Positions 1 through 54,033 of a DNA stretch of 64,000 bases are shown here, piece by piece (position 1 is the stretch's first letter; every line of letters starts with the position of its first letter). This stretch comes from Valencia hispanica (lineage: Eukaryota; Chordata; Actinopteri; Cyprinodontiformes; Valenciidae), in NCBI GenBank assembly GCA_963556495.2, contig OY747713.1:372001-436000 (forward strand), in the 5' to 3' direction. Below the pieces are notes generated by a model. That model made no database searches. It saw only the letters and a program-made list of their open reading frames with translations, and was not told where the DNA came from. Both the position numbers and the translations under genes were made by a program.

Positions 1-1067
1 AGTATGAATATGCATGCATTCTTTGTGTCAATAGGAAACTTTTCATCAGAACGAACAGAAATCACGTGGGGTTCCCCAGGGCTCCATCCTGGGGCCCCTC
101 TTATTTAATATCTACATGCTCCCACTAGCCCAGATTATAACAACCAATAAGATTAGTTACCATAACTATGCGGATGATACTCAGCTCTACATTACGATGT
201 CAACAGGTGACTTTGAACCCATCCAAACCTTAAGTAAATGCATCGAGCAAATAAATGGATGGATGGGCCATAACTTTCTCCAGCTGAACAGAAACAAAAC
301 AGAAGTAATTACTTTCTGACCTAAAGAGGAACGATCAACAGTCGGCACACAGCTTCAGTTAATCCAGCTAGAAACTACTGATCAGGCCTGAAATCTAGGT
401 GTAGTAATGGACTCAGACCTGAACCTCCAGGGTCACATAAAGGTCAATAACAAGGTCAGCCTTCTATCACCTGAAGAACATTTCTAGGATTAAAGGACTG
501 ATGTCACAACAGGACCTCGAAAAACTCATCCATGCGTTTATCTTTAGTCCGATTGATTACTGCAACAGCGTCTTCACAGGTCTGCCTAAAAAGTCAATCA
601 GACAGCTGCAGCTGATCCAGAACGCTGCTGCTCGTGTTCCTCACTAGAACCAGGAAAGTAGAGCACATCACCCCAGTTCTAAAGTCCTTACACTGGCTCC
701 CTGTAGCTCAGAGAATAGACTTCTAAATACGTCTACTAGTTTATAAATCATTGAAAGGCTTAGCAACAAAGTATGATGACAATCTACTGTTACTGAGTTC
801 TTTTAAATCCCAACTAAAAATGTATCTGTTTAGAGCTGCCTTTGAGTAATGTTTTCATGCATCCTATGTTTTGTGTGTTTCATTCGTCATTGCTCTTTAT
901 ACTTCATCCTAAATTCATGTCTGCTTTTGAGTAATTTGTTTTCCTGTCATATGTTCTTTCTATTTTATGGTTTATTGCAGTTTTTACTTTATCCCCTAAT
1001 CATGTGAAGCACCTTGAATTTCCTTTTTGTTGAAAGTGTGGTATACTAATAAAATTGCCTTGTCTAA
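1..1067 (+). mobile_element. L2/CR1-clade LINE, 3' part, decayed
   Basis: The 3' half of a non-LTR retrotransposon that enters from the left edge. Reverse-transcriptase motifs [10 protein letters not shown] (near 74-103) and YADDTQLYI (about 167-193) are readable on the + strand, followed by the thumb-like stretch ending KTEVITF at 317. In-frame stops after 317 and near 388 and a deletion of the late C-terminal coding part (around 770-800) show that it is dead. The 3' end is an AATAAAATTGCCTTG-type tail near 1050-1067. Two more copies of this family lie at 2888-3690 and 47716-50210 on the minus strand. The clade call rests on remembered motif style. Confidence 0.8.
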
Positions 1068-1185
1068 AGACCAAGGCTTGTATGAAGAGTTTTGGGAGTG
1101 AAGGTCAGTTAGTTTTAAACAATTTATAAATAGTTTATGACTAAATAGCACCTTATGATTTGTGTTCAAATCACCAATTCACAAT

Positions 1186-1250
1186 GCAAAGCTTCGAGGT
1201 GATTCTGGTCCATCATCATGTCAGAGTTTGGTACGCATTGCCGGCAGTAA
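1186..1250 (+). mobile_element. Rex3 LINE, 5' segment split off by a Harbinger insertion
   Basis: A short piece of reverse-transcriptase coding sequence reading SLVRIAGS just before the Harbinger left end. If the Harbinger element and one TAA copy are removed, the frame runs straight into the Rex3 segment at 15409. The TAA at 1248-1250 is repeated at 15406-15408 and is the target-site duplication. The left limit is approximate because the Rex3 copy is 5'-truncated. Confidence 0.75.
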
Positions 1251-1493
1251 AGGCCGGTTTATACTTCTGCGTCGTGTCCCTCGCGTAGGGTACGCCGTAA
1301 CCGCCGTAGCCTCTGCGTAGGTCCGCCGAGGCTTGAAGCGCACCTCCTCGGACCTGACGTGCACCCCGGCGACGCAACGCAGAGACGCGGAAGTACTCCC
1401 TTGTGATTGGTCAGTCAGATTACGTATTTACGGATGTTAGGTTTTTGTTGCTGAATGTATGCCGAAGCCGCCATTTTTAAAACATAACCCACA

Positions 1494-2192
1494 ATGGACC
1501 AGACCAGCGAGCAATTCATTGAGGAGGTCAGGAAATATATGCATATCTATGACTCCGCCTCAAGAGATTACAAAGATATGCAGATGAACCTAAACTCATG
1601 GAGGGAACATGTGTTGCCGACATGTAACTGTGTATTAACAAACAACAAGAAAATGTAACTGCTAATATCGATGCATATGACTCATACAGCCACGGTATTA
1701 ATGAGTAATGTTATCTAGTAGGACAATATTTCCCATTGTTCTGCAACAGGGAAACTGGCACGTGCTAGCGCGTTGCTGTCTTGATTACAGCACACGAGTT
1801 TTTCTACTTTTTTTTTCAAACAGGATGCAACACCCGCAGAATCTCTCACTCAGACTGTTGTCCAGTCCACGTCTGGTTTCAGCATGCCCGAGGAAGAGGG
1901 CACTTCCTCTTCCCCCAGCCCCTCTGTGCTGCTGCCAGCCTCGCCATGCCCCGTGCCCTCTCCGTCACCAAAACCTCCACGGTATTCAATAAAAAGGAGA
2001 AGAAGTGAAGAGTGGATCAAAGAAGAGCTGCAACGGGCACACGAAAAGCGGCAAGCAGCGGAGGAGCACCTGGCATGTGCCATTGATGAGGGAAGATTCG
2101 GTGCCCATATTGCGGATTTGCTGCACAAAATACCCGGCGACACAAAAACGAGACTCATGGGAAAAGTTTATGAAGCTCTCGCCACAGAATAG
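1494..2192 (+). pseudogene. Harbinger MADF/Myb-like DNA-binding protein, broken
   Basis: This is the accessory gene of the Harbinger element; in this superfamily such proteins help the transposase bind and enter the nucleus. Exon 1 starts at ATG 1494 and shows the N-terminal half of a MADF/Myb-SANT-like domain (FIEEVRKYMHIYDSASRDYK). The rest of the domain is missing after about 1600. A second exon follows an acceptor CAG at 1821-1823 and runs from 1824 to a TAG stop at 2190-2192. It is Ser/Pro-rich, then has a basic and coiled-coil-like segment (IKRRRSEEWIKEELQRA). The stretch between has stops, so no full protein can be made. Confidence 0.7.
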
Positions 2193-2887
2193 GTTTTTCA
2201 CTAAATGTGAATTGTATAGTTTTTCTCATTTTCTTAATTTGTTTTTTTATTTTTATATTTGGTACTTTTATTTGTGTATTGTTACGTTACAGTTGCTTTT
2301 GTGCACTTTAATATATTATTCATAGTTGAGTTTTTCCATTTTTTGCAGTTATATTTTATCTGCACTTTGTGTGTTTTCATATACCCATTAAACTTAACTT
2401 TTTGCAGTGCCTCATTGTACTTGTCTATTTCACTGACTATATCCCTTTGATGCATATGTCCTACAATTGACACCCATTTAAAGGTTTTTTATAATATATG
2501 CAAGGGTGTGGATGGTATCTTTGCAAATCTTTCACTTCATTAGACATTAGACGTCATTCAATACTCTGCCAGTAAATAAATGTTTGTCTCAGTGACAAAC
2601 GGGCCCAAAAAAGGATAGATGTTTTTATAGAATACATATCACAAATATGACAGCATATTAATGTTAATATAAATAGCTTAATAGAATAGACTAAAACTGA
2701 ATAAAAAGTCAAATAAGTTTAAGATTAAGAAAGCATTCTACATCTGTAGATGTTAAATGTTGTATGTGGAAAAAATTTGTTTTAATAATTCAAGCACTAG
2801 AGGGATATTGTAATTCATCTTGTTTGTCTTGTGTAATTAAGAAACATACCATTGGCAACCAAGTCATGTCTTTTATTGCATAAAACA
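2193..2887. other. AT-rich non-coding stretch inside Harbinger
   Basis: No gene seen. AT-rich sequence between the broken DNA-binding gene and the next LINE insertion, probably internal Harbinger sequence. Confidence 0.5.
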
Positions 2888-3690
2888 CAAGGCAAGGCAA
2901 TTTTATTTGTATAGCACACTTTCCTACAGCAGGGTAATTCAAGGTGCTTTACATGATTTGGTGATTTAAAAAAAACCCACATGGAATATAACATTGGAAA
3001 TTAAAAGTAAAAAAAACACATTACACATGACACACAATAAAGCAAGAGAGCATGAACACACTTCATACATATGACATCAATCATTTACTCGAAGGCAATT
3101 CTAAACAGATGGTTTTTAGTCTCGATTTTAAGCAGTTCAGAGTTTCAGCAGCTCTACACTCGTCAGGAAGTTTGTTCCAGATAAGGGGAGCATAGAAACT
3201 GAAAGCTGCTTCTCCATGTTTAGTTCTGAGTCTAGGGATGTTTAGTAGGCTAGAGTTGGAGGACCTGAGTGGTCTTGGTGGTTGGTACCATGACAACAGG
3301 TCTTCAACATACTTTGGTGCTAAGCCATGTAATGATTTATAAACTAGTAAAAGTATTTAGAAGTCTATTCTCTGAGCTACAGGGAGCCAGTGTAAGGACT
3401 TTAGATCTGGGGGGGATGTGCTCTACTTTCCTTGTTCTAGTGAGGAACACAAGCAGCAGCGTTCTGGATCAGCTGCAGCTGTCTGATTGACTTTTTAGGC
3501 AGACCTGTGAAGACACTGTTGCAGTAATCAATCCGACTAAAGATAAACGCATGGATGGGTTTTTCTAGGTCCTGTTGCGAAATCAGTCCTTTAATCCTAG
3601 AAATGTTCTTCAGGTGATGGAAGGCTGACCTTGTTATTGACCTTTATGTGACCCTGGAGGTTCAGGTCTGAGTCCATTACTACACCTACC
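2888..3690 (-). mobile_element. L2/CR1-clade LINE, 3' end, minus strand
   Basis: The tail (AAGGCAAGGCAATTTTATTTG on the + strand) lies at 2890, so the element points left. On the minus strand the C-terminal part of ORF2 reads [20 protein letters not shown] and WNKLPDECRAAETL (3081-3296), a conserved end of L2/CR1-type proteins. The segment closely matches 47716-48330. It breaks off at about 3690, where the 47.7-kb copy continues. Confidence 0.85.
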
Positions 3691-6409: not shown

Positions 6410-6864
6410 TCAGGTGAGCCGTCCACGATGGATGACAATCTCCTGCCATGGCAGCTTCCGAACATCCGAAATGAAATACTTTGTCAGGTCTGTGCGCTCT
6501 GCCAGGGCTGCTCTGGAGGACCGTGCCCTGGAAAGCTGATGTGGCAGCAATTCTTCGAAATACTTGTCCCCTGCCACCACTCTTCGCCAATCCCCAGCTT
6601 GTGCAGATCCAGCCGTCTCCGCATCAACAAAAGCAACAGGGATGTATCTGCTTGCCTCGGCGTTGCTGTCGTCAGTGTAGGCCAAAAAGTTGTGCAAGAC
6701 AAGACAGGCCTTGACTATGTCCACAGCTTTGTCAGGGAGGCATTCGAGGGACCGTCCGAGGATCCGCCATCTTGCCACAAGAATCCCAAACGAGTTCTCA
6801 ATGACTCGTCTGGCTCTGGAAAGTCAGTAGTTGAATGTCTGCTTCTCCACTGGTAAATTAGCAC
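6410..6864 (-). pseudogene. Harbinger DDE transposase, last exon
   Basis: The C-terminal exon of the PIF/Harbinger (HARBI1-like) transposase. The acceptor TATGCAG lies just above 6864. The exon completes a split Gly codon, then reads NLPVEK, a TGA stop, and LSRARRVIENSFGILVARWR, containing the third catalytic acidic residue (Glu of RRVIEN). It continues through RILGRSLECLPDK and IVKACLVLHNFL to a TGA at 6410-6412. The in-frame TGA in the NY-LSRARR motif makes it non-functional. Its partner exon lies 7.5 kb away because the TTAA element sits in the intron. Confidence 0.85.
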
Positions 6865-8244
6865 CTGCATACACAGACCACACATAATATGAGCATCCAG
6901 TATATCCAGTATTTTTTAAAGTGCCCCTGGCAGGAAATTTGCATTATTTTAGTTTTTTGGTCATTTTTGTTAGTTTCCCCAGCCTGCCTATGTCCCCTAA
7001 GGGGTTAAAACTACTGATTAGTGTTTTCTTTGTCCCCGGGTATGTCTGCCGACATAGTGAAATTAGCACTCAGAAACAGGCTGTTTTGCAGTTCGGCATA
7101 TGACCTCACGTTTCGGCATATGTCGTAACTAAGTTCCAGCCAATTACCCCCTTCTCTGAACTACAGTCTCCAAGTCCCTCCCCCCGCGACGCGTATTGCT
7201 ACCTAAACAACGAGAGCTACGGTAAAAGCCAAACGACAAACCAACAGCATGGATTCAAGACCACATCGACACTGCTCTATACCTATACCTATATATTTTT
7301 GTCCTCCCCACTTCCTCCCCACTGAAAAGCTTGTGGATTAACATTATTTATGCAGGGAATGTACCCGATCGACTCCCGAAGCGCGTGGTCGTTTGTAGCA
7401 AACATTTCTCAAACGAATCTTTTATTAACTTGGGACAATACAGCAGCGGATTCGCAGATCGTCTAAAACGTTTACCAGGATCAATACCAACTCTCCGTGA
7501 ACCAGCAAACATCCCTATACAAGTGAGTATATTTCCGCAATAATTTCCTTCAGCTGTTATATACACATTGTTGCATTGTTTTAGTTCTTCGCTTTACAAT
7601 TAGCTTCAAAGCTAACATTCAGAACTAGCTTCACAGCTTATACCCCAGTTTGTTTATGTAGTATTGGTGCTGGTATGCTTTTCTTTGGAAAAAGATTATA
7701 TATTATAGTTCAACATTCGAAATATCGTTAACATTAGCTAAGAAAATATGGCGAGTCTTTTTCTGGTCGATCAGACTTATTGTGGTTGTTCAGCCTTATG
7801 TTGCAAGTGAAATTGTGTACTGTGATCTAAACCAAAGTTTGTGCACTAACACCTGGCGTATTCGTACATTTCGGCCCGACAATAAATCCCACCCCAAGAC
7901 AAAGAAAACTGCTAATCGGTCGACACAACTATTTATTTCTTTTTAAAATAATGGTAGCTAATCAAATTGTCTTGTAAAACAGGCCAGCACATCTCAGTCA
8001 GCACATCAAGCCAGTGTTCCCGAATCACCCGCTGGAGGGAAGCTCTTTAGTGGAACCTTCAAAGGCACACGACTCTACTTATGATCCAGCAAATTCAGTC
8101 ACAGCTTTATCCGACATTACACTTCAAGCGTAAGTTGATTACTATTTGTGAGTGTGTCTTTGGCTTTATACAACTTTCCGAGTTGTTTGCATTCAAGCTT
8201 CAAGGAATCTTCTCAGCAAAATCTTTTGTGATATAGATTTTAGT

Positions 8245-8300
8245 GGCTGTTGTTGTTGTTGTTAATATTATTAATATTATTATTATTATTATTATTATTA
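8245..8300. repeat. TTG/ATT microsatellite
   Basis: GTT repeats pass into about ten ATT repeats inside an intron of the TTAA-element transposase. Confidence 0.9.
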
Positions 8301-8351
8301 AACTTGTGGTGCCTAACTTGTGTTAGCATTACTTGTTTGTTTGGTTAATTA

Positions 8352-9496
8352 CACTCAACAAAAATATAAACGCAACACCTTTGTTTCTGCTCCCATTTTT
8401 CATGAGATGGACTTAAAGATCTAAAATTCATTCCAGATACACAATATTACCATTTTTCTCAAACATTGTTCACAAATCAGTCTAAATGTGTGATAGTGAG
8501 CACTTCTGCTTTGCTGAGATAATCCATCCCACCTCACAGGTGTGCCACATCAAGATGCTGATCTGACATCATGATTAGTGCACAGGTGTACCTTATACTG
8601 CCCACAATAAAAGGACACCCTGGAATGTGCAGTTTTTTGCTTTATTGGGGGTCTGGGGACTCAGAACCGGTCAGTATCTGGTGTGACCACCATTTGCCTC
8701 ATGCAGTGCAACACATCTTCTTCGCATAGAGTTTATCAGATTGTCAATTGTGGCCTGTGGAATGTTGGTCCACTCCTCTTCAATGGCTGTGCGAAGTTGT
8801 TGGATATTAGTGGGAACTGGTACACGCTGTCGTATACGCCGGTCAAGCACATCCCAAACATGCTCAATGGGTGACATGTCCGGTGAGTATGCTGGCCATG
8901 CAAGAACTGGGACATTTTCAGCTTCCAAGAATTGTGTACAGATCCTTGCAACATGGGGCCGTGCATTATCTTGCTTAAACATGAGGTGATGTTACGGCGA
9001 CGAGCTGGAGTCAGGTCAAGACCCCGATGAGGACGACGAGCATGCAGTTGAGCTTCCCGGAGACGGTTTCTGACAGTTTGTGCAGAAATTGTTTGGGTAT
9101 GCAAACCAATTGTTTCAGCAGCTGTCTGAGTGGCTGGTCTCAGACGATCTTGGAGGTGAACCTGCTGGATGTGGAGGTCCTGGGCTGGTGTGGTTACACG
9201 TGGTCTGCGGTTGTGAGGCCGGTTGGATGTACTGCCATATTCTCTGAAACGCCTTTGGAGATGGCTTATGGTGGAGAAATGAACATTCAATGCACGAGCA
9301 ACAGATCTGGTTGACATTCCTGCTATTATCTCAGCAAAGCAGAAGTGCTCACTATCACACATTTAGACTGATTTGTGAACAATGTTTGAGAGAAATGGTA
9401 ATATTGTGTATCTGGAATGAATTTTAGATCTTTAAGTCCATCTCATGAAAAATGGGAGCAGAAACAAAAGTGTTGCGTTAATATTTTTGTTGAGTG
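8352..9496. mobile_element. Tc1-like transposon, 1145 bp
   Basis: Flanked by TA on both sides (8350-8351 and 9497-9498). The terminal inverted repeats are 172 bp (8352-8523 and 9325-9496), begin CACTCAACAAAAATAT and differ at only three positions by my reading, so the insertion is young. It lies in an intron of the TTAA-element transposase and is the innermost layer of the nest. Confidence 0.93.
8671..9362 (-). pseudogene. Tc1-like transposase with central deletion
   Basis: The minus strand from 9362 encodes the paired helix-turn-helix DNA-binding region (MSTRSVARALNVHFSTISHL and TVRNRLREAQL). Near 8990 it jumps, with a frame change, to the C-terminal catalytic part (DNARPHVARICTQFLEAENV, then YSPDMSPIEHVWDVL), ending at 8671. 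Roughly 100 residues carrying the first catalytic Asp are missing, so the copy cannot transpose itself. Confidence 0.9.
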
Positions 9497-12182
9497 TAAA
9501 TACTAATCCAGCCCAGCTTTAGGGTCTTAACAACAAAATATCCAATCTGTTGTACTGAATATGTTTTTCTGTGTTCTGACATATAGAGAGGCATCATCCA
9601 CCCCAGCACATCACACCAGCAAATACATAGTTTACGAGGACTGCATCCTGGAGCTGTTCAATACCTGCCCAGTCTGCACGAGGAAATGCAAAGTGAGGAT
9701 CACGCGGCTTGGGACATTCCTGGCGGTTAACCAGTTCTGCCCACACTGCACATTCGGTAGACGATGGAACAGCCAGCCTATCCTGTGGAGCACGCCAGCT
9801 GGGAACATTCACTTGTCTGCAGCCGTGTACCTGAGTGGTGCATCATTCATTCAACTTCAAAAGGTAAGCTGTCAAAAAAAATGCATGAACTGTAAAAGGC
9901 ACTGGAAGACAACAGATCTCAACCAGGCAACACAATTTTGATATATAAAATCCTTTTTTTTTTAAATATTGTAGCCTATCCAGATGGTATTATGGATGGA
10001 TTATTTTTACTAGCCATGCGCATTTTAAAAATTTCATGAAAAAAACTGTTCATAGATTTCAAAGACATGTTAACAATGTAACAAAAGCAACCATACACAT
10101 ACTCTCAGTAGAGGAAATGTAAAATGTGACTGACTTCTGTTTAGAATTCATTGACTTTATCATACACCTATTCTTTTCTCCTCTTCACTGATAGGTCTTC
10201 AAAGCAATGAAGCTCCACGTGTTTCGTTTCGAGACATTTTGTGGCCATGCCAGATCTTTCATTGAACCGGCTGTCATTCACCACTGGAAGGTCAAGCAGG
10301 ATGAAATTCTGCAGCGGCTGAGTGCGGAAGAAAACATCATACTTGGCGGAGACATGCGGGCGGACTCCCCTACTTCAGTATTTATGATTATATACATCTA
10401 AAGTATTTTATGAAATGCAGAAAACTAAATTATATAAAAAGCCAGCAGTAATGCAGAAGTGGTGGAGATTGAACAATAATTTCACTTTAAAATACTTTCA
10501 ACAGGTCACTCGGCAAAATATGGAAGTTATACCATGATGTATCTGAAGACAAACACCATTGTGGACTTGCAGTTGGTTCAGGTGAGCTTTTATTACTGAC
10601 TTTGTTAACCTTATAGATGGGTTGTTGAGTCTTTTTTAAATCATAGTTCATGGTGTATTTTGTCATTATCTCTTTCTATGGGGCTAGAGCAACGAGGTTG
10701 GGGACAGCTATCATATGGAGAAAGAAGGCCTTTCGCGAAGCCTGACACTGCTGGAGGCGTGTGGCATCACCTTCGACTGCATTGTCACTGACCGTCAATC
10801 ACAAATTCAGAAATTTCTTAGACAGCAAAACATCACCCATTACTATGATGTCTGGCACATGGCAAAAGGTTAGTGAGAGTTGTGCATTTGATTTAAGGGA
10901 TCTGGACTGTGGCCAAATTTCCATAATACTTACTACTCACATACTGATAGCTGTATTGGATCCAAGGATGGTATTGTAAATATTTTTCGTTTTCACCAAG
11001 TACTACATTACTATCATTGTAGGAATTATGAAGAAAATAGATGCAATCAGCTGCGAAAAATTACAGAAGTGGAAGAAGAGCATCAACAATCATATATACT
11101 GGACTGCTGCTTCCTGTTCATCTGGTCCAGAGAGAATTGCCAGATGTAATGCGATCCTGAACCATGTGCGAAACATCCATACACATGAAGATCCTCTGTA
11201 CCCAGAGTGTGAGCATGCAATCCGCAAGACTACGGACAAGAACAAATGGCTCAGAGCAGTTACTTTACAAAAAATAAAAAAACTGGTAATTCATCACTAC
11301 AGACAACCACACACAACTAGTGTGCAACAACCACACTGCCCTACCTGGCTCATTCAATATACCACCCTAATCATCCCCCTGCATTTCAATGGCTAACTTG
11401 TATCATCTCTCATCACCTCAAAAACTTGTGTGCAGTGCGTGTTCCGGAGTGCTACACATCGGTGGAGGTAAATTCTGCCCCATAACCACATTATATTGTT
11501 TTGAGTGCCTTGAAAAAAGTGTTATATAAAAGCAAAGAGTTATTATGATTTATAATTTGTGGATTTCAAAGATGAAGAAGATGTTGTCAAACTAAGCCTC
11601 CACCATCAGACATCTTCTGTGGAGTCATTCCATTCAGTGATCCTCCGTTTTGCCCCAAAAAATGTCGTCTTTCCCTTCATTGGAACGCTGTGCAGGTAAG
11701 AAAAACTATTTTATTTGTAATACACTATTTTTGGCATCATCAATAACTGCACTATTATTTATCCTTTGTTTTACCCTTCAGACTATATCTTGCTGCCATG
11801 CATTATAATGAAAATGCAGAGCGAGCACAGGCTGTGACCATGGAAGGTGTGCCTCGTTTCACGCTGTCCTTCCCAAAGCCAAGCCAAGGGGAGTGCAGAG
11901 CCAGACCTCTGAAGACTCGGGCAACGTTTGGTAAGGGTTTATTATATTTTAAAAAATCTCAAAAAATAACATCACAGATGCAAGAACAAACACACAACTT
12001 CACTACAATTTTTTGTTTTTGTGTTATTTTTTTCTAATAGGCTATGTTGCAGACTTGATCGACCTGATCTTCACAGAAGTCTTTGTAAATCCCTCGCTGT
12101 ACACAGAGGCGCTGTTAGCCATTCCTGTCCCTGAAGACCTTTCATCACAGTACGAGAGGCCCAGCAAGGAGGAGGTCAAGGT

Positions 12183-12345
12183 TTAGACCCGGGGCAGTTT
12201 AAATCCTGTGTAATGGTCTTTATTCTCTGGGAATTCAGCACGAATCCGTTGCACCACACATGCTGGAATTACCACCCGGATTGTACGGCAAAGGAGTCCC
12301 CAACACCAGCTCACAAATGACCGATACGCCAGATACCTGAAACGA
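12183..12345 (-). CDS. ballast-like gene exon 4
   Basis: Acceptor TTTACAG. Encodes RYLAYRSFVSWCWG, then IPACVVQRIRAEFP and YTGFKLPRV, ending in TAA at 12185-12183. This is the segment most like the end of P2X7. Confidence 0.85.
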
Positions 12346-13719
12346 CTGTAAAATAGATTGACTCAGTATATGGCAGAACTCATTATATAGTATTTATTAT
12401 AGCTTTATGTTGCTATTGAATGCTACTTATTTGATTTGTTAGGATTTCTAAGTTCATTTCTACAATGTAAATAAAATCATTCTTAAAATGTAAATTACAG
12501 GTGTATTGTTCTGTAGTGGAGTGGGCCATAATCGGCTTGGTAAATCTGGCCTGCATTTTGCAGTGAGTAAACATTCAGGCAGACAGGGTCCAGTCCTGGA
12601 TGTTCTATCATGCACTGCAGCTCTCCATCTGCTTCACAAAGTCGACTCATAACCTAATAAAATTATAAAATATTAAGTACGTGTGACAAACCAATAGCCT
12701 AGATAATTGGTGATCTGAATTGTTGTAGAATGTAACCTTGGGAATCTCATGACAGCAAATGTTCTCTACTTCTGTTGGCATTGATGTGCAATTCCCACAT
12801 AGGCACCTATTGAAAAGCACCAGGTAGGTAAATGTAATTGTAAAAGTCTATCTGCCTAGTGTGTTTGTGTAATTGGCCAGATAGCAATGTAATCAATATC
12901 TGGGGGAAATTATAGGTCTTGCCCTGTGAACTCATTGTCAGAAAGAATCAGATTTATTCACAAAGTGTATGAGCACATGTAAAGAATTTTTCACCAGCAG
13001 ATGTCAATCTACTATAAAAAAATAGTGCTGATAAAAAATAAAACGCATAAAGAAAAAAAATGGTGTGAAATTTATAAAATAATTGCTGTTGACCTGTTAA
13101 ACTGAGTGACTGCAGTGGGGAATAAGCTGTGCCTGTTGGTCCTGCTCCAACATGGGAAAAAAAATAGTAAATAATAATAATACATGGGGATAATAACAAT
13201 AATCACGCTTCACTGACTACAGCAAGTGTAGCATATTCGCAAATTGGAGGTCGAGACAAACGGTGGAATACTGAGATACTTTTTTTGCCACAACACTATT
13301 GTCAAACGATTTTCAAAGCACGTAGAGATCGTTGATCTCCATGCAAGGGGCAGTGTTTCAACTACTAGCGTACAGTAGTAAAGCAGCATTTTGTAAATGT
13401 TCAATCCGAAATTTTTAGAACCACTAATCGAAATCGTGGAAGTACATTCGTATCTGATGTCAACAAAACAGACTAATTTGGTGTGGTAGAAATAGCCTAA
13501 TCAGACTGATACGGGGCAAATCCGCACCGAGATGTTTTAAACCTAACTAATATCCCCTAAACAAACAAAAAAACACAACCAAACTGTATTGACAACTAAC
13601 CATTCGGACACGTCCTGTTGAAGCCGTGGCGTTTCTGCTTCCTCTTCAGGTGCTTCGCCGTCTGGATCAGATTCTGGATCGAGTTGAAATGCCATTACAG
13701 TAGTAGATAACTGAGCCAT
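12183..13719 (-). CDS. P2X7 C-terminal ballast-like zinc-binding protein carried by the TTAA element
   Basis: Four minus-strand exons (13601-13719, 12737-12806, 12499-12653, 12183-12345) join in phase into 168 codons plus TAA, all with GT/AG borders and no interruption. Residues 1-40 are acidic (LDPESDPDGEAPEEEAET). Then come the cysteine motif CLCGNC and an ENICC pair, a middle block with HPGLDPVCLNVYSLQ, and a C-terminal block with LAYRSFVSWCWG, IPACVVQRIRAEFP and HYTGFKLP. The order of Cys clusters and the ending (IRxEFP then YxGFK) match the cytoplasmic ballast domain of P2X7 receptors, which binds zinc. There is no P2X channel part and no membrane segment. Its stop overlaps the stop of the convergent transposase. 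Function is unknown; a structural or accessory role in the element, or a domesticated host protein, are both open. Confidence 0.82.
12499..12653 (-). CDS. ballast-like gene exon 3
   Basis: Acceptor ATTAG, donor GTAATT, leaving a split codon in phase 2. Encodes the middle block with CEADGELQCMIEHPGLDPVC and YQADYGPL. Confidence 0.82.
12737..12806 (-). CDS. ballast-like gene exon 2
   Basis: Acceptor CAATAG, donor GTTACA. Encodes CLCGNCTSMPTEVENICC and EIPK, the first two Cys clusters of the ballast-type fold. Confidence 0.82.
13601..13719 (-). CDS. ballast-like gene exon 1
   Basis: Starts at ATG 13717-13719; a second in-frame ATG follows at 13693-13695. It ends in a split codon (phase 2) before donor GTTAGT. 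It encodes an acidic 39-residue leader ending QQDVSE. Confidence 0.8.
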
Positions 13720-14199
13720 TACTGTCGTGGTGAAACTAGAGACGTAAGGAGGACAGATGGATGTGTGGATGGATGATCAAATATTTTATTAGGCCTGTAA
13801 TTTGTAAACAGATTATTGTGTAACAAACAATATAATAAGGCCTAAGCCTAATTATATTGTGTGTTACACAATATAATTAGGCTTAGGCCAAATTATCTTT
13901 CATTTATAATATTGGAATTTTGGGCAATTTGTGGTGTGCAATTTGTGGTACGCAAATGCATGTTTCATCAGATGCGGAAGTCAGTTTCTCCTTTCACAAT
14001 AAAGGGGCATGGCTTTGGCCCCGCCCACCAAAACTCGGTTGTTCTGTGCTATTGCTAACAGAAGGGCCACCTAGTAGGGGCTGCAATTCTACAACAAGGC
14101 TGAGTTACGGCTATCGATCCTTTGATACAGTAATAAGGTACTTTAATGTGGGACTAAAAAGGGTGCAAACGTCGCGGGGAATTTCATGTCAGTGGCACT
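13720..14199. promoter_or_regulatory. right end of TTAA element, probable promoter region of ballast-like gene
   Basis: 480 bp between the ballast-like start codon and the right terminal repeat. It contains the perfect hairpin at 13839-13889. No TATA or other core signal can be assigned with confidence; the promoter role is inferred from position only. Confidence 0.35.
13839..13889. repeat. perfect 24-bp hairpin with 3-base loop
   Basis: The arms 13839-13862 (starting GGCCTAAGCCTAATTATATT) and 13866-13889 are exact reverse complements around the loop GTT. It lies between the ballast-like gene start and the right terminal repeat. Confidence 0.95.
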
Positions 14200-14352
14200 T
14201 TAAGTTGAAAAACTTATGGTGATATAATCTACTTTGATGGGCAGATCTGTGTTGTGATGACATGACTGTGTCAAAGTATAAACAAATACAATCTAAAACA
14301 ACAATATAAATGTTTTGAGATAACACAGATATAATATGAATTATTCTCATAC

Positions 14353-15278
14353 CTGGACAGGGACGCATCAAGTTGCTGTGCAGTGGGAAGGCAGCATCAC
14401 CGACGATAACATGGGAGACCTTGACTGCCGTGCCTGGCAGGTTGGTTGGAGGAGGAAAGTCGGCTTGGTTACCTAGCAGCATGAAACCAAAACTGCTTTC
14501 CTTGAATACTCCACCATCACTTTCCCGGCCATATGCTCCTACATCCACCGTAGTGAACCAATACCTGGCGTCACACTTGGCCATTAGAACAATGGAGTGA
14601 TTGCCCTTGTAATTGTAAAAGCTGCTTCCAGACCTCGGTGGCGCACGGATGTTCACATGCTTCCCGTCTACACTTCCAACACATTTGGGAAAGTTCCATA
14701 ATCGCCAAAAATCGATGGCAATGGCTTCCCATTGTGTGACTGATGGGCGAGCGAGATATTCCGGAAAATTCGGAAATTATGCAGGAAACTGTGCTTTTGG
14801 ACATGCGGACGTGGCTACTGCCTGCTGGCTTCCACCACTAGCCAAAAATCTCACCGTAACCGCCAGTCTTTCGTGTGTGGTGATTGGTGAATGGCGAGTA
14901 CTTTGGTGGATTATATATGGAGCAACACGACGAGCCAGGTCATCAAATCTACTTGCAGACATTCTGAAGTAGGTGAAGTGCATTTCCTCATCGACATCCC
15001 TGAGTGGCAGAACACCCGTCGGTAGATCTATTTTCATTTAGCGGGCGCACGTACCATCTTCTACGTCTCTGTCTTCTCATTTGCTTGCGTTGCAAAGTGT
15101 TCAAAAGAAGGATAATTTGTTCGTCTGCTTCCACAATCTCGTTGAGACACTGCACCAAGTCGGCTGCCATTGTTGTTCTAAAACAGGAAATACTTGCCGG
15201 AACTGAAGCAAACATAAGCAAACCATCAGAAAAACTCCACCCTGTGGAGTTTGCTGACTGATACCAGCCTACTGCCAC
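14353..15278 (-). pseudogene. Harbinger DDE transposase, upstream exon(s), frameshifted
   Basis: The N-terminal and catalytic part of the PIF/Harbinger transposase, reading leftwards. It starts near 15170-15278 with a basic run ([18 protein letters not shown]). It changes frame into [20 protein letters not shown], then LARRVAPYI, changes frame again near 14790, and reads [20 protein letters not shown] with the first catalytic Asp (VDGKH). The Asp of [10 protein letters not shown] is the second. It ends at 14353 with a Gly codon split across donor GTATGAG, and the last exon at 6864 supplies the matching half codon. At least two frameshifts make it inactive. Confidence 0.85.
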
Positions 15279-15405: not shown

Positions 15406-16359
15406 TAAGTCGGGCTTGTTTCCGGTGAGAGTTGGACTCCACCAAGGTTGTCCTTTGTCACCGATTCTTGACTTTTATGGAAAGGATTTCGAGGCACAGC
15501 CAAGGTGTTGAGGAGATCCGTTTAGGTGGCCGCAGGATCGGGTCTCTGCTTTTTGCAGATGACGTGGTCCTGCTGGCTTCATCGGAACGTGATCTGCAGA
15601 TTTCGCTGGAGCGGTTCGCAGCTGAGTGTGAAGCGGCTGGGATGAGAATCAGCACCTCCAAATCCGAGGCCATGGTCTTGAGCCGGAGAAGGGTGGGGTG
15701 CCTTCTCCGGGTCGGAGATGGGGTCCTTTCCCAAGTGGAGGAGTTTAAGTATCTGGTGGTCTTGTTCACAAATGAGAGAGAAATGAAGTGGGAGATCGAT
15801 AGACGGATTGGCGAGGCATCTGCAGTTATGCGGGCGCTGTACCGGTCTGTCAAGGTGAGGAGAGAGCTGAGCCGAAAGGCGAAGCTCTCGATTTACCGGT
15901 CGATCTACGTTCCTACCCTCATCTATGGTCACGAACTCTGGGTGGTGACCGAAAGAACGAGATCACGGATACAAGCGGCTGAAATGAGTTTTCTTCGTAG
16001 AATGTCTGGGCTCTCCCTTAGAGATTGGGTGAGAAGCTCGGTAATCCGGAGGGGGCTCATAGTAGAGCCGCTGCTCCTCCACATCGAGAGGAGTCAGTTG
16101 AGGTGGCTCGGGCATCTGGTCAGGATACCTCCTGGACGCCTCCCTGGTCAGGTGTTTCGGGCACGTCCCACCAGGAGGAGGCCCAGGGGAAGGCCCAGGA
16201 CACGCTGGAGGGACTATGTTTCTCGGCTGGCCTGGGAGCGCCTTGGGGTTCCTCCTGAGGAGCTGGAACAAGTGGCTGGGGAGAGGGAAGTCTGGGTCTC
16301 TTTGCTTAAGCTGCTGCCCCCGCGACCCGACCCCGGATAAGCGGAAGATGGATGGATGT
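15406..16359 (+). mobile_element. Rex3 (RTE-clade) LINE, 3' segment
   Basis: The 3' kilobase of a Rex3 element, interrupted by Harbinger at the TAA 15406-15408. The sequence around 15437-15463 matches the region widely used to detect Rex3 in fishes, and the 3' end is the characteristic GGATAAGCGGAAGATGGATG tail (near 16336-16358). Confidence 0.88.
15410..16340 (+). pseudogene. Rex3 reverse transcriptase, C-terminal part
   Basis: Reads GLFPVRVGLHQGCPLSPIL in one frame to about 15468, then shifts frame into FMERISRHSQG and stays open to the stop at 16338-16340. The catalytic box FADDVVLLAS is at 15552 onward, and the family's typical C-terminal blocks follow (RSQLRWLGHLVR, then WRDYVSRLAWERLGVPPEEL). 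The N-terminal endonuclease is absent and the frame is broken once, so this copy is dead though little diverged. Confidence 0.85.
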
Positions 16360-16618
16360 TTAAATTATTTTTTTTAAGCTGATCTGTATTTTGAATATCG
16401 TAGGGAACAATCTTTATTGTTTATGAAATGCTAGCGATGTGCAAAAGCAGGCCGCACTAATCAGAAACCTTTGAAAACACTGTTCATACCCAAACAATTG
16501 AAGAATGAATTCTTACAGATGCAGCAAAAACACAGTGAAATAGACGATCATAACAAACTTTAATTTATTTATCTTAAGCTCATTTCTTTGCCCAGACACA
16601 ACCTTACTTGAACGATTC
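16360..16618. other. non-coding stretch
   Basis: No gene or element recognised between the Rex3 tail and the foldback element. Confidence 0.4.
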
Positions 16619-16621
16619 TTA

Positions 16622-17289
16622 AGCCCGCCCCACATGAGAGCTATCTGCTGAGCAAAAAGTCATTGGAGGCCGTTTGCTCAGCAGATAGCTCGCCTTGTGC
16701 GGTTAATTTTCGGTGAGTTTTCTGCCTCATGAGGCGTTGAGGTGAAAATCAAACAGGTTTGATATTTTTCGCCTGGCGTGTGCGCTCTACTTGAGCTGAG
16801 TGCTGAGGGCAAATATTCAAGCGACCAATCAAAACGCATCCTCCGCTCACATGATTCCAAGATGGCAGCCCCCTGTTTTCAGTGAAAACAATGAATGAAA
16901 TGGAGACAGAAATGGATTTGGGGCAGAAATGCTGCTTCTCATTTTGTTTATGAGGCGTCGCCCCCGTCACCGTTTGAAGGTTAGGAAAATATGGCTTACG
17001 GTCGAGTACCCACGAGTTTAAATTCTAAAAAATAATCTTCTCTGTGGGCTGCCATCTTGGAATCATGCGAGCAGAGAATGTGTTTTGATTGGTCGCTTAA
17101 ATATATTTGCCCTCAGCACACAGCTCAAGTAGAGCGAGGAGAAAAATATCAAACCTGTTTGATTTTCACCTCAACACCTCATGAGGCAGAAAACTCAACG
17201 AAAATGAGCTGCACACGGCGAGCTATCTGCTGAGCAAACGGGATCGAATGACTTTTTGCTCAGCAGATAGCTCTCGTGTGCGGCGGGCT
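16622..17289. mobile_element. foldback MITE with ~245-bp inverted repeats
   Basis: The ends AGCCCGCC/GGCGGGCT are flanked by a TTA duplication (16619-16621 and 17290-17292). Most of the element is two long inverted arms, each about 245 bp. Each arm also contains a smaller palindrome in which GAGCTATCTGCTGAGCAAA faces its complement. No coding capacity. The 3-bp TTA target suggests mobilisation by a PIF/Harbinger-type transposase, but the ends differ from the Harbinger copy to its left. Confidence 0.85.
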
Positions 17290-17292
17290 TTA

Positions 17293-18424
17293 GATCTCCT
17301 TTGAAGGGTGGTTTCGTTGTCTGGGGGATCAGTGTTAAGGCAGAGAAACCAGCACTTAGCTGGTCAGTTAGCAGCAGCTGCGTGGGGCGCTGCCAGCAGT
17401 CAGTCCTCATGGGTGGGAGCCACCGTTAGCTCAGAACGTTGTCGTCCTCTCAGCTCGGTTCTGTTCGGCAATACTTTCCCACGGACCGGTCCCTTGTCAT
17501 AGGCAGCTTTCAGCTTAGCAGCTCTGGGCTCGTTCAGCATGGACCAGCGTGTCAGCGAGGCTCCTGTAATTTAAAGATTCTTTTTGCAGGGGTTAAACAA
17601 GTCAGGTTCAGGATTTATTCCATTGTTTACCTGATCGATTAGCAAGCTGTTGTCTGTTGGATCCAATGGGTTTGGAGCCGCTCCCCTCGCCAGTGAGGAT
17701 GGATGTTTAAAGTGCCGATTTCTCTCCTGATGCGAGTCCAGCGGATTAACGGGCAAAAGAGACTTGAGTTCAGGGCAGCAGCAGTTGTTTCTTTGGGATT
17801 CACAACTCCTGTTGAAACTAGAAATGCATTGTGCGATTTAGCACCCCTACCGGCTGTAGGTCTGTGTTTTGGTCCAGTAATCACAGCTGTATTCCAACAA
17901 CAAGCAAGAACCTTTTTCTGGGATTAGATTTATAAAGTACTCAAATTACGACAGCAAAAACTCAGTGCAGCTCATGCATTGGTGTTTGTGGAAGTAGGTG
18001 GCTTTTACAGGCGCTGCCTCATGTCCTTGGGCCTTTCAGCGTCACGTTGCTGCGACTCTTTGTCGTAATGTTGGCCCAAGTCTAAATAAGCTGTTGTAAT
18101 TCCTTCACGTTATGTATTATTGTCGTTTACAATCGATATGATTATTGAGGTAACCAGGAATAATTGGAATCATTATTGAGTGACTTTCATGACTTTTGGA
18201 CATACTAGCTGTTACCATTCACTTCCATTGTTTATGCTAAGCTAAAGCAAATGAACTGGGCTGGTTACAAAATGTTTTTTCACACTAATCTAACTCTGGG
18301 GAAAATGGCAACAGACAAAATTTCACTTAGAGGGGTGGAATATCCCTTTAGAGAGGTCGTCATGACGCTAATTAACTTTTGCTTTTTCTTGGCGCTGTAA
18401 TGATGGATTGTTACTGTTGCTCAG
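17293..18424. other. atp9b intron sequence (5' part of window gene)
   Basis: I see no exon here. Upstream atp9b exons would encode the segment before GFVLAVTM, and no such coding stretch is visible on either strand. Confidence 0.5.
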
Positions 18425-43600: not shown

Positions 43601-46600
43601 GGAGCCTCACAGAAGATCTGCTGTTTCTGCTGCAGGTCTGTTTGAGGTACTATGAGCACGAGTTTGTAGAGCTGGCCTGCCAGTGTCCGGCTGTGGTCTG
43701 CTGCCGATGTTCTCCGACTCAGAAGGCCGAAATCGTGCGCCTCCTCCAGCAGCACACAGACAACAGAACCTGCGCCATAGGTGGGCTTCAGAGACTGGGT
43801 CAGAACTCTGGATCTAGTCTTCATTAAGGCCATGTTCACACGTAGCCGGGGTTTTTAAAAACGGATATTTTCACCAACTGTAGGGGGCAGTAGTTCCCCC
43901 AAATTATCCACTCAGTAACTTTCTACTTTCTAACTTCTACATAGAGCAGTAATTAAGCTTGTAAAAACAAGCAAGCAAAAAGCGTTTGGACAATCGATGA
44001 TGCCAACACGTCTCTGAGGTCATAAACACTGTTTCTGAGTGGAAACAGGTGGAACATGTGATGTTGGAGCATGTTTGTCATGGAAAGTGACGTTGCGGAG
44101 CCTAAAACTCTGGTTATTTCTGTCTGCAACCAAACGCTTAAAACGGAGAAAACGCAAATCTTTACTTTGGCCGGAGTTTTTAGAAAGATTAGTTTTCGGT
44201 GCCGTAAATCTATGTTTTCGTGTGGATGACGGGCCGAACTGTAGAAAAATATAATCGTTTTGTAAGATACTCAGCTACGTGTGGACAAGGCATACGTTTC
44301 TGCTTTCCCTCCGGACCTTCCTGTAATGTGGGATTTATTCCTCACTGAACACATATTCTCGGTTTTTCTTGCTGCTGCAGTAAAAGATGATTTATTATTT
44401 TAGTTTTTTTTAACATTATCAGAGGAAACCGTTTTTAAGGACTCTTATTTTCCTTAGAGGAAAACCAGCTTTATAATCATCTGACAATAAAACTGATATC
44501 TGCTACAATTAGCCACAAGACGGGAGTCAAACTACCTCAGTTTGACCCGTAAGCCTAGGTAACATATTTTTTCCATATGATTGGTTTTTGTGGCAGGTGA
44601 TGGAGGGAATGATGTGAGCATGATCCAGGCTGCAGACTGTGGGATCGGGATTGAAGGAAAGGTAAAATCTTCCTGAACTCTTGATTAGTTATAACTTCCT
44701 GCAGCTGGAGAACAAACAGGCGTGTTAGAAAGGTTTTGGATTTATGTCCCTTGGTGCAGATATGTGAAAATGTTGGTGATAAATGTTGAGCAGCAGCAGC
44801 TCCGTCTCTCAGACCTTGTTTCTGTGCAGGAAGGGAAGCAGGCCTCGCTGGCTGCAGATTTCTCCATCACTCAGTTCAAACACATCGGCCGCCTCCTCAT
44901 GGTTCACGGCAGGAACAGCTACAAGCGCTCGGCGGCACTTGGACAGTTCGTCATGCACCGAGGGATGATCATCTCCACCATGCAGGTACGGAAGCAGCTC
45001 CTAACCCTGACCTGCTTCATTCACCTGGACTTTCTTCTTATCCTGCTTGTTGGTTTCTCCTCAGGCCGTCTTCTCCTCCATTTTCTTCTTTGCATCCGTG
45101 CCTCTGTACCAGGGTTTCCTCATGGTCGGGTAAGTAAACTTCTACAGTCATAATCAGTGGTCCAAACATCTGCCAGACCTCCTGCCTTGTTTTAAAACAG
45201 AGCAGTTCTGTGCAGCGGTTGGTGGGAGGAGAACATGTTGAGCTAAGATGTTAAAATAAATCCTACAGGAGGGTTCTTTATTTAGGATCATTTCCGTAAA
45301 TTAAACTGAAAAACTGTAGAAGGTTCTGGTTCTTTTGGTACCGCACCTGCTTGCTGCTCCACATCCATTCTTGTTGTGTATTTCTGTTCCATGCAGGTAC
45401 GCCACCATCTACACCATGTTCCCTGTGTTCTCCTTGGTTCTGGATCAGGACGTGAAGCCAGAGATGGCGCTGCTTTATCCAGAACTTTACAAAGACCTCA
45501 CCAAGGTACCAGTTCATGTTCCAACTGTCGACTCTGCCACGCCGCTGGAGGTTCGCTTCTCTGATGATGTTTCTGTTTTCAGGGCCGTTCCTTATCCTTC
45601 AAAACATTCCTGATCTGGGTTTTAATCAGCATCTACCAAGGTAAGCTGCTGGTAAGAAGCGTCTTGGTGTCCCTCGGGTCCGAAGACGCTTCGTTTCCCT
45701 CGGGTCCGACGACGCTTCGTTTCCCTCGGTTCCGAAGACGCTTCGTTTCCCTCGCCTCCGAAGACGCTTCGTTTCCCTCGCCTGTGAAGACGCTTCGTGT
45801 CCCTCGGGGTCCGAAGACGCTTCTGTTCCCTCGGGGTCCGAAGACGCTTCGGTTTCCTCGGGGTCCGAAGACGCTTCGGTTTCCTCGGGGTCCGAAGACG
45901 CTTCGGTTCCCTCGGGGTCCGAAGACGCTTCGGTTCCCTCGCCTCCGAAGACGCTTCGTGTCCCTCGGGGTCCGAAGACGCTTCGTTTCCCTCGCCTCCG
46001 AAGACGCTTCGTGTCCCTCGGGGTCCGAAGACGCTTTGTTTCCCTCGCCTCCGAAGACGCTTCGTGTCCCTCGGGGTCTGAAGACGCTTCGGTTCCCTCG
46101 GGGTCCGAAGACGCTTCGTTTCCCTCGCCTCTGAAGACGCTTCGTGTCCCTCGGGGTCCGAAGACGCTCCGTGTCCCTCGGGGTCCGAAGACGCTCCGTG
46201 TCCCTCGGGGTCCGAAGACGCTCCGTTTCCCTCGCCTCCGAAGACGCTTCGTGTCCCTCGGGGTCCGAAGACGCTTCGTTTCCCTCGCCTCTGAAGACGC
46301 TTCGGTTCCCTCGGGGTCCGAAGACGCTTCGTGTCCCTCGGATCCGGAGACGCTTTGTGTTCCTCTGGTCTAAAGTTTCCATCCTCTGATCATGTAGACG
46401 ATGGAGAAGAACATCTGGCTGTTTTTCCGGAGTGGAACGATTATCTGAGGTTTGACCATGAATCAGTTTCTCTGGCTCAAATGTATACATACACCCCCAC
46501 TTACTCGACGTACCTCAGCAGGTTGAACTTCCAGCCTGGAAGGAGAACAGCTCAAACAGAATGATGGACCTTCATGAAGAGGTGGATCATCCCCCAGTTT

Positions 46601-49600
46601 GGGTTCATTGAAGATAGTTCTTTGTTCCTTTTTGGCTCCGCCCCCTCCCAGTGAAGTTTCTCAGTATCTAAGGTTTCCAGCCACCGTCCTCGTTCACATG
46701 CAGCCTTTTGTCTGAGCCGTAAATCGATACGATGAAACCGCTAAGCCGTGCCGCGTGTGAGAAAGATCTGTGTTCCTGCCGGAGCGTGACTTCCTGACAA
46801 CTCCGGGTTTTTAATTAAAGACCCAAAAAGCTTCAGGGAAAATTAGACGATATGGGAGGGCGGGGGGTGGGGGGGGGGGGTTTATCTGGCTCCATTTATA
46901 CAGAGATTGACTCGCTGGAATCCGCCGCATGAAGACTGTATATAAGAGCAATTATGTGATCAGTTAAAGGCTAATTACGCTTAATTTGTGTGGCGTTATG
47001 ATGAAACCAAAGGCTATCAGCATACAGTAGGCGCCCAGAGGTGGTTAGGGTCAGACACAGCGGGACTTATCTTCACACTCGCTGATCCTGCAGTTCGGGG
47101 GGATGTATTCTTTTGAACTTAAATTTCTCTCTGGCTTCTTTCCTCCAAGATTTTCTTGGATGAGGATAAAAGGAACTCTGATAGTTTCATTTATCCACAG
47201 TCCTGGTAGAAGAAGCTCAAACAGTGTTTGGATCAAAGTCTGGAAAACCACAGAGATTCTTATATTTGACTTTTAACATGTTGCAGAAACAATATGTCAT
47301 ATTTTGTCTCATCAGCTTCATCTAACTCAGCAGGCACCAACCTTTTTTTCACCATGGACCGGTTTAATATCAGACAATATTTTCACGGACCGGCCTTTAA
47401 GGTGTGGCGGATAAATGATAACGGACGGTATAAAAACGGGTTATTTTTATTAGAATATAATAATTATAATGTAAACCAAGGTAACATTTAAACATACCTT
47501 TAATAATTCAAGATTTACCACAAAAACAAAGTGCATGAAAAACGTAACTCACCACAACGCTGAATCAGTGAGAGCCTTGGGACTTTTCCCCTTTCCAGAG
47601 AAACAATGGAGAGACGTTTGTTTTCTATCCATCATGCTCGCTGTTAGCTGTAACCATCACATGACCAATACACGCCTACTTGACATGTCAGACTGAGCTA
47701 CGTAACGGGATATCTGCTCATTTTTCAAAATTAAACAGCGGCAATTCTAAACAGATGGTTTTTAGTCTCGATTTTAAGCAGTTCAGAGTTTCAGCAGCTC
47801 TCCACTCGTCAGGAAGTTTGTTCCAGATAAGGGGAGCATAGAAACTGAAAGCTGCTTCTCCATGTTTAGTTCTGAGTCTTGGGATGTTTAGTAGGCTAGA
47901 GTTGGAGGACCTGAGTGGTCTGGGTGGTTGGTACCCTGACAACAGGTCTTCAACATATTTTGGTGCTAAGCCATCTAATGATTTATAAACTAGTAAAAGT
48001 ATTTAGAAGTCTATTCTCTGAGCTACAGGGAGCCAGTGTAAGGACTTTAGAACTGGGGTGATGTGCTCTACTTTCCTGGTTCTAGTGAGGAACACGAGCA
48101 GCAGCGTTCTGGATCAGCTGCAGCTGTCTGATTGACTTTTTAGGCAGACCTGTGAAGACGCTGTTGCAGTAATCAATCCCACTAAAGATAAACGCATGGA
48201 TGAGTTTTTCTAGGTCCTGTTGCGACATCAGTCCTTTAATCCTAGAAATGTTCTTCAGGTGATAGAAGGCTGACCTTGTTATTGACCTTTGTGTGACCCT
48301 GGAGGTTCAGGTCTGAGTCCATAACTACACCTAGATTTCAGGCCTGATCAGTAGTTTCTAGCTGGATTAACTGAAGCTGTGTGCTGACTGTTGATCGTTC
48401 CTCTTTAGGTCCAAAAATAATTACTTCTGTTTTGTTTCTGTTCAGCTGGAGAAAGTTATGGCACATCCATCCATTTATTTGGTCAATGCATTGATTTAGG
48501 GTTTGAATGGGTTCAGAGTCAGTGATTTCCGATAAGAACGATTCCCTAGCATCTTTTATAGTTAGCTGATATCTATTCAGTCTATCTTTGTAGATCTTAC
48601 AGTGAACCTGGAGTCGAGTTTTCCGCCATTTTCTCTCGGCGCGTCGACACTCTCTCTTTTCACTACATACCAGTGGATTACTTGTCCACAGAGACTTCTT
48701 TCTACCTGAGACTACTTTCACTTTAGTTGAAGCAATGGAATCCATGATGTCTGAGGTTTTCGCAAGGAAATGATCTACCAGCTTATTTACTGAGTTTGAG
48801 TTGGGAGATGAGGGGGATGTGGTGGAAGGATAAATACGTTTAAAGGTTTCTACTGAACTGTCCCCTAGAAAACGCTTTTTTATAGTGGTCTTACTGTGGC
48901 TGGATAATTTAGCAGAGATGGTACTTTCAAAGAAAATACAGAAATGGTCAGATAATGCAATATTAATTACAGAGATGTCAGAAATATTTAAACCTTTGCT
49001 GATAATTAAGTCCAGAGTGTGTCCTTTATTGTGTGTTGGTTGTTTGACATGCTGGGTCAGTCCGAAGTTGTGGAGAGTATCATCTAACGTTTTTGCTTGT
49101 CTATCTTGGGGGTTGTCGGTATGGATGTTAAAGTCCCCCACGATGATTAGTTGGTCATAGTCGATACATATTACAGAAAGAAGGTCATTGAAATCATTAA
49201 AGAAGTTAGAGTTAAGTTTTGGTGGTTTATATAAACTTAGAAATAACGCTTTGTTAGGCTCATTTATCTGGGTGGCTAGATATTCAAAAGAATCAAACGT
49301 GCCCAGAGTTACCTTTTTAAATTTCATTGAGTTGTGAAAGATGGTGGCTACACCTCCACCTCGTCTGTGTTTTCTGTTCTCGCTTAAGAAATTGTAATTT
49401 GGAGGAGTAGATTCTATTAATGCAGATGTTTCATTATTTTCATCTAGCCAAGTTTCTGATAAAAAAGGGCTTGTAAATTATGCTCAGTGATGAAGTCATT
49501 GATAAGAAAAGACTTCCCGGATAGAGATCTAATGTTTAATAAAGCTAACTTAAGTATTGTGATGATGGGCAGCTGAACCTTCTGACAGGTTATCAATTTG

Positions 49601-53781: not shown

Positions 53782-54033
53782 ATGGAGAAAACTGCTGACC
53801 TGACAGAAAGCCATCACTGACCTCCTCCATGAGGAGGGAAAGCCTCAAGAAGGTGGATGTTCCCAAAGTGCTGCATCAAAGCGCATTAATAGGAAGTTAT
53901 GTGGAAGGAAAAGGTGCAGGGATGAGTGCAGCCTGGAGAGGATTGTCAGTAAAAGGTCATTGAAAAGTGTTGCTGACCTTCATAAGGAGCGGATTGAGGC
54001 TGGAGTTAGAGCATCAAGAGGCTCAGACGGATC
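53782..54033 (+). mobile_element. Tc1-like transposase N-terminal relic
   Basis: The + strand starts MEKTADLTE and, with frame changes, gives QSAASKRINRKLCG-like helix-turn-helix sequence, then LERIVS and LHKERIEAGVRASR, and RRILDM at the edge of the minisatellite. It is the DNA-binding half of a common fish Tc1-like transposase. Confidence 0.7.

Follow-up and report, generated by a model that had tools for sequence, protein, structure and literature searches.

Kolobok DNA transposons are flanked by TTAA, carry 5′-RR/YY-3′ ends and encode a DDE transposase with a C/DxxH motif. In the Kol0 lineage, a second gene termed KolX is standard; its product has the ballast fold and has been proposed as the source, by fusion, of the tail of P2X7 (Kojima & Bao 2022, PMC9587614; statements on this paper and on Rump et al. 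2020, PMC7016195, refer to their available parts). Described here is a window of 64,000 nucleotides (nt) from Valencia hispanica (assembly GCA_963556495.2, contig OY747713.1, positions 372,001 to 436,000, forward strand). Positions 6920-14199 of this window very probably (about 0.9) constitute a decayed Kolobok-type DNA transposon, whose intact four-exon gene is a regular KolX with a predicted ballast-like fold and a likely role as a zinc-binding transposase helper.

The window element adds one more member to the published Kol0/KolX kind. It has in common with that kind the TTAA, the 5′-RR...YY-3′ ends, a DxxH DDE transposase and a second, ballast gene with seven cysteines, and the proposal that it prompts for the origin of P2X7 is identical to the published one (PMC9587614). 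The window copy differs from published Kol0 elements in its place within a Harbinger intron, its Tc1-like insert, its dead transposase and its KolX of four exons. No mention of KolX exon structure was found in the available parts of Kojima & Bao (PMC9587614). With the ballast of P2X7 (PF20478; PDB 6u9v, 9e3m), the window KolX shares the domain family, the predicted fold, seven zinc cysteines and an IRxEFP..Y.GFK end. In contrast to P2X7, it has no channel domain, its ballast is cut by introns (P2X7 uses one exon) and its cysteines are spaced CCx18C rather than CCx6C.

The borders of the element were located by a scan for TTAA pairs with inverted ends, which delimits 7,280 base pairs (bp). The first 20 bases of the two ends are complementary at 17 positions, a match that none of 579,460 shuffled TTAA pairs equals, and the pair at 6916-6919/14200-14203 is the sole one around KolX to pass. 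Only three of the 28,973 real TTAA pairs of the window, this one included, reach at least 16/20; of the remaining two, one lies in the repeats of the Tc1-like element and one in the long inverted repeat that spans 480-3604. The insertion interrupts a PIF/Harbinger transposase gene within an intron. Of the 158 positions of the Pfam profile DDE_Tnp_4, the N-terminal half of this gene matches 1-94 and the C-terminal half 113-158. Once the element and one TTAA are excised in silico, the Harbinger exons flank a GT-AG intron of 204 bp and share one reading frame, broken by a single stop codon; this rejoining is independent proof of the ends. The element would have entered by a cut-and-paste move into a TTAA within this intron. 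L009, a sister copy from a different chromosome, can be aligned from end to end, is bordered by TTAA on both sides and encloses both genes. Its aligned pieces are 89.8-95.4% identical to the window element; it has a surplus of ~2.8 kb near window position 8026, and its own inverted ends, more decayed, match at 14/20. A preliminary description of this stretch had proposed a 7.28-kb TTAA-flanked element with inverted ends, and the end match, the Harbinger rejoining and the L009 alignment bear it out. The mapped features are as follows (L010 is a further copy in the same genome).

6413..6823, minus strand: PIF/Harbinger transposase, C-terminal half (DDE_Tnp_4 113-158 of 158)
6916..6919: left TTAA target-site duplication (sequence)
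6920..14199: probable Kolobok (Kol0-type) element, 7,280 bp (TTAA and inverted ends, Harbinger rejoining, L009 alignment)
6920..6939, plus strand: left terminal inverted repeat, complementary to the right one at 17 of 20 bases (end comparison)
7295..7522, plus strand: remnant of the transposase THAP domain, which has lost its N-terminal zinc ligands and its frame (Pfam THAP E 4.6e-6, tblastn with P0061, L009)
7983..8129, plus strand: transposase exon fragment, about residues 90-184 of P0061 missing (tblastn with P0061)
8349..9499, minus strand: Tc1-like element inside an intron of the transposase, with 175-bp inverted repeats of 98.3% identity (sequence, Pfam scan)
9587..9863, plus strand: transposase exon x3 (tblastn with P0061)
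10195..10370, plus strand: transposase exon x4 with GDMRADS, expected end without GT (tblastn with P0061)
10505..10581, plus strand: transposase exon x5 (tblastn with P0061)
10688..10868, plus strand: transposase exon x6, IVTDR...DVWH (tblastn with P0061)
11023..11259, plus strand: transposase exon x7, TT against GT in L009/L010 (tblastn with P0061, copy comparison)
11572..11695, plus strand: transposase exon x8, SSVESFHS (tblastn with P0061)
11782..11930, plus strand: transposase exon x9 (tblastn with P0061)
12041..12186, plus strand: last transposase exon x10, ending early relative to L009 and L010 (tblastn with P0061, copy comparison)
12183..12345, minus strand: KolX exon 4, PACVVQRIRAEFP...YTGFKLP end (Pfam P2RX7_C E 5e-12 on the frame with this exon)
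12499..12653, minus strand: KolX exon 3 (exon join, protein alignment)
12737..12806, minus strand: KolX exon 2, which encodes the zinc cysteines CxCxxC and CC (exon join, protein alignment)
13601..13719, minus strand: KolX exon 1, ATG at 13717-13719 (start and end match protein P0001 over 100% of the query)
14180..14199, minus strand: right terminal inverted repeat (end comparison)
14200..14203: right TTAA target-site duplication (sequence)
14340..15037, minus strand: PIF/Harbinger transposase, N-terminal half, extent approximate (DDE_Tnp_4 1-94 of 158)
L009 7430-7449 and L010 7496-7515 (reverse complement), opposite strands: transposase/KolX 20-bp overlap (copy sequences)

The four minus-strand KolX exons join to 507 nt, that is 168 codons and a stop, with no internal stop codon and with GT..AG borders at 3/3 introns, in accordance with the open frame and consensus splice borders first read from the letters. 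The nearest protein is an Odontesthes ‘P2X purinoceptor 7-like’ sequence of 167 amino acids (aa), 70% identical; its match over the whole length backs both the start codon and the joins between exons. The joined 168-aa protein matches the Pfam family P2RX7_C (PF20478) over residues 24-164 with E 2.9e-17 and 63.6 bits against a curated cut-off of 23.5, and the kinship to P2X7 ballast put forward in the preliminary description is thereby confirmed. This is the one family found by the Pfam scan, which detects no P2X channel domain in the protein. Four sequences in the PDB are matched, all of them P2X7 (best E 3.8e-11). Alignment identifies seven zinc-type cysteines (C41, C43, C46, C57, C58, C77 and C144), for which zinc binding is predicted, and two of the five residues of the P2X7 guanine-nucleotide site (R546, H547, R574, R578, K583) are kept. 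Altered conserved columns number 2 of 59, compared with 0-6 in annotated relatives. Modelled on a 70%-identical relative, the window KolX is predicted to take the ballast fold.

The transposase lies on the plus strand, convergent with KolX, and tblastn with the fish THAP protein P0061 recovers it as nine stretches from 7295 to 12177. The motifs GDMRAD, VTDR, DVWH and SVESFHS follow one another in this order and suggest the catalytic assignment. The gene is broken: the zinc ligands of its THAP domain and the frame are lost, ~95 N-terminal residues are missing, the C terminus is cut, exon x4 ends without GT, and exon x7 shows TT in place of the GT found in L009 and L010. In these two less decayed copies, the coding ends of the transposase and KolX overlap by 20 bp on opposite strands. 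Of the 120 transposase relatives listed, 50 have a similar, SRFxxxxV-type tail. The 4-bp TTAA duplication (likewise in L009), the AG...CT ends (5′-RR/YY-3′) and the DxxH transposase are published Kolobok features, and a second gene with a ballast domain is that of Kol0; therefore, the ballast gene is KolX and not cargo. A piggyBac identity was rejected, as the ends start with RR, Pfam scans detect THAP and no piggyBac family, and the relatives of the transposase are THAP proteins.

The genome of the same fish (1.29 Gb, 29 contigs) was searched with KolX DNA, where 40 of 678 first-look candidates were scored and copy numbers are lower bounds, and independently with transposase DNA, where 16 of 16 candidates were scored. 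KolX DNA has at least 41 matches, five of them long; transposase DNA has 22, with pieces at least 90% identical in five places. Each gene alone leads to the identical five places, on contigs C16, C3, C10, C24 and C2. KolX and transposase occur together in 5/5 of these close copies; short transposase pieces, 67-89% identical, lie outside this count at ~ten further places. Both element ends are visible in the window and in L009 only; the other three close copies are incomplete in the stretches read. KolX is intact in the window only, and stops, frameshifts or lost splice sites break it in 4/4 other long copies. The ratio of nonsynonymous to synonymous rates (dN/dS), taken pairwise with indel codons dropped, is 0.66, 0.23, 1.48 and 0.64 for the window KolX against L009, L010, L011 and L012; for the transposase against L009, L010 and L011 it is 0.84, 0.34 and 0.62, values that stem from the kept exons, with exons missing in two of the three copies. 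Given 3-6 disabling lesions in the ~2.1 kb of transposase, a 507-nt frame would stay intact by chance with a probability of 0.24-0.49. A history in which the element decayed after insertion, its KolX being spared by chance, fits these values.

Of the 41 listed KolX-DNA matches, 34 are short pieces from the first 363 bases, and another two belong to split copies, as their second parts. Two short pieces (L007 and L008) have a TTAA and a similar end close by, and the short pieces are likely to be short non-autonomous derivatives. At two of the ~ten further places with transposase pieces, C3 near 714,000 and C16 near 49,276,000, a ballast match stands within ~2.2 kb.

Human P2X7 ballast has 103 matches in this genome, the best being the fish's own P2X7, 53% identical and in one exon. 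Besides P2X7, 83 single-frame matches on 23 contigs cover most of the ballast, and 78 of them are stop-free in the match (a count that includes one row with masked letters). They may be compared with nanor-like or ZCD proteins, the stand-alone fish ballast proteins of Rump et al. (2020, PMC7016195), which the window KolX likewise resembles; here, such frames recur 83 times within one genome. A giant 2,170-aa ballast protein was rejected, its open frame having come from a stretch with masked letters. The 83 frames comprise several related types, of which type B is the commonest. Type B forms a young family: the terminal exons of the 13 copies read are 97.5-100% identical. Nine of these copies were seen on 10-kb stretches (L023-L030 and L034), where five show both ends, three the left end only and one neither as an exact match. 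The ends consist of TTAA and AGGGACTCTAAGGAAGTT, and copies with both ends measure 4,461, 6,010, 6,805, 6,911 and 6,913 bp. One copy is located as follows.

L025 2850-9654, given strand: type B Kolobok copy (TTAA ends; full copies ~6.8-6.9 kb)

On the opposite strand of the type B element lie pieces of a Kolobok-type transposase, ~20-39% identical to that of the first family (best E ~9e-9). Judged by their sequences, these are two distinct Kolobok lineages in one genome, each with a ballast gene convergent to its transposase. The type B ballast lies entirely within the last exon, which encodes 171 aa and follows a phase-0 intron of 77 bp; its zinc cluster begins at residue 49, and both intron borders occur as exact motifs in 6/9 copies. 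Among the 13 copies, 31 changes (one of them a stop) give a nonsynonymous/synonymous rate ratio of 0.59, numbers too small for a strong claim on selection. Neither Kojima & Bao (PMC9587614) nor Rump et al. (PMC7016195), in the parts available, was found to describe a second, young family whose ballast is P2X7-like and confined to a single exon.

Fish have nanor-like ballast genes that stand alone (Rump et al. 2020, PMC7016195), and one of them might have been captured by accident as passenger cargo. This origin of the window gene is extremely improbable: a ballast gene stands beside Kolobok-type transposases in both lineages of this genome, every close copy found carries it, adjacent locus tags in Coilia grayii hold gene and transposase, and in the literature KolX counts among the standard genes of Kol0 (PMC9587614). 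The preliminary description, which spoke of transposon cargo, was right that a mobile element carries the gene, and the pairing of gene and transposase recurs in the close copies; what is carried is the regular second gene of Kol0. An intact frame with 2/59 conserved columns changed, next to a broken transposase, could also suggest a domesticated host gene, maintained by selection and outliving its element. This is very improbable as well, since the gene still resides within the element's own ends, its dN/dS (0.23-1.48 over four copies) is not clearly below that of the transposase (0.34-0.84), and chance would suffice to keep the frame open at the probability given above. The contrast between intact gene and broken transposase, to which the preliminary description drew attention, is real in both its parts and carries no weight, KolX being broken in the other long copies; preservation of the gene over the transposase is contradicted by the dN/dS check, in which KolX behaves like the transposase. 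The regular KolX of a decayed Kolobok element is thus the preferred identity of the window gene.

The P2X7 tail is likely derived from a KolX; mobile DNA as a plausible route to this tail, also raised in the preliminary description, is an idea already in print (PMC9587614). The donor may more likely have been a P2X7-like kind from the second family than the window kind. P2RX7_C scores are 93.6 bits for type B and 108.2 for a rarer third type (C), compared with 63.6 for the window KolX and 216.7 for the fish's own P2X7, and the best E against P2X7 chains is 1.7e-16 for type B and 3.8e-11 for the window KolX. Type B and P2X7 have CCx6C and PSCC, the window KolX CCx18C and PAC. An uninterrupted P2X7 ballast is easier to derive from the second kind because the type B ballast occupies a single exon, whereas that of the window KolX is split by three introns. 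Counted from its likely acceptor, the terminal exon of the fish's own P2X7 encodes 168 aa, is in phase 0 and has its zinc cluster at residue 42; human P2X7 exon 13 encodes 170 aa (Rump et al. 2020, PMC7016195). A first tree, with rat and human as the only P2X7, placed P2X7 on a long branch outside all KolX. A second tree, with the fish's own P2X7 and the second type added, resolves the window type (A), the second type (B/C) and P2X7 as clades with support of 98/99, 99/97 and 100/98.

More specifically, the last exon of P2X7 could be a captured ballast exon of the second-kind KolX (single exon, CCx6C, PSCC), a tentative and rather doubtful proposition. Several observations weigh against a donor of the second type. 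The second tree is unrooted and gives neither the sister pair among the three clades nor a direction. Over their first 41-48 residues, the P2X7 and B exons show no detectable likeness (194 of 1,000 shuffles are as good), and exon capture is therefore not shown beyond the ballast domain. Furthermore, type C (L031) and L038 are without B's phase-0 intron and match gaplessly through the junction. Because their frames run through, the phase-0 border is not an old common feature, and the near-equal exon lengths (171 versus 168 and 170 aa) are possibly coincidence; the odds of exon capture, initially placed somewhat under even, were lowered for this reason. The shared CCx6C, double-cysteine PSCC and uninterrupted exon, together with a three-clade tree that gives no direction, would also accommodate the reverse, in which second-type Kolobok elements took their ballast from P2X7. 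This direction is improbable, as window-type KolX proteins are present in corals, molluscs, echinoderms and lancelets, while P2X7 is found only in bony vertebrates (Rump et al. 2020, PMC7016195). Derivation of the P2X7 tail from a KolX remains the likely course of events.

No KolX relative was found in viral contigs (two scans, queries A1 and P0241) or in GTDB prokaryote contigs. The notion that the GFK ending of KolX is a mere by-product of the overlap with the transposase stop was rejected, since P2X7 keeps GFK without a transposase. By eye, the reading frames P0237, P0238 and P0241 seem to pass directly from intron-like letters into an uninterrupted ballast that begins at the first zinc cysteine; on this view, the first intron of KolX would be old and both inner introns young.

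KolX is found beside Kolobok-type transposases and has no other Pfam domain. Some fish gene models fuse ballast to DNA-binding modules, namely THAP (P0181, P0197, P0202) and SAP (P0195). Since KolX is kept beside Kolobok transposases and some models join it to THAP or SAP, action with the transposase in the nucleus can be proposed; most likely, KolX would serve there as a zinc-stabilised partner of the transposase. A repeated acidic N-terminus precedes KolX in the fish models P0033, P0034, P0035, P0181, P0183, P0184, P0187, P0189 and P0214, several of which have the same junction, and these models are possibly further host captures. To go by their source names, they presumably come from cyprinid genera, and their acidic N-terminus is taken here to be that of the FiNZ type of fish zinc-finger genes.

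Elsewhere in the window, the inverted repeat at 480-3604 has 300-nt arms, 94% identical, and spans ~3.1 kb overall. A reverse-transcriptase fragment (Pfam RVT_1) lies at 15429-16340, and a long imperfect palindrome at 16617-17294, with 161-nt arms 91% complementary and additional inner arms, resembles a miniature element. Minisatellite-like arrays at 45622-46514 and 53964-55698 are free of stops in more than one reading frame of either strand. The 379-aa frame at 48338-49477 is presumably a non-LTR (long terminal repeat) endonuclease region.

From one well-bounded copy, it is seen that a fish gene of the database sort ‘P2X purinoceptor 7-like’ belongs to a transposon; many such annotations are therefore probably transposon genes. 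Two KolX kinds coexist in one genome, and the second is nearer to P2X7 by score, cysteine spacing and its uninterrupted ballast exon. The published idea of a transposon origin for the P2X7 tail thereby becomes a question of donor lineage. If the last exon of P2X7 was indeed captured from such an element, the donor of the tail would be a definable transposon lineage, open to study today.
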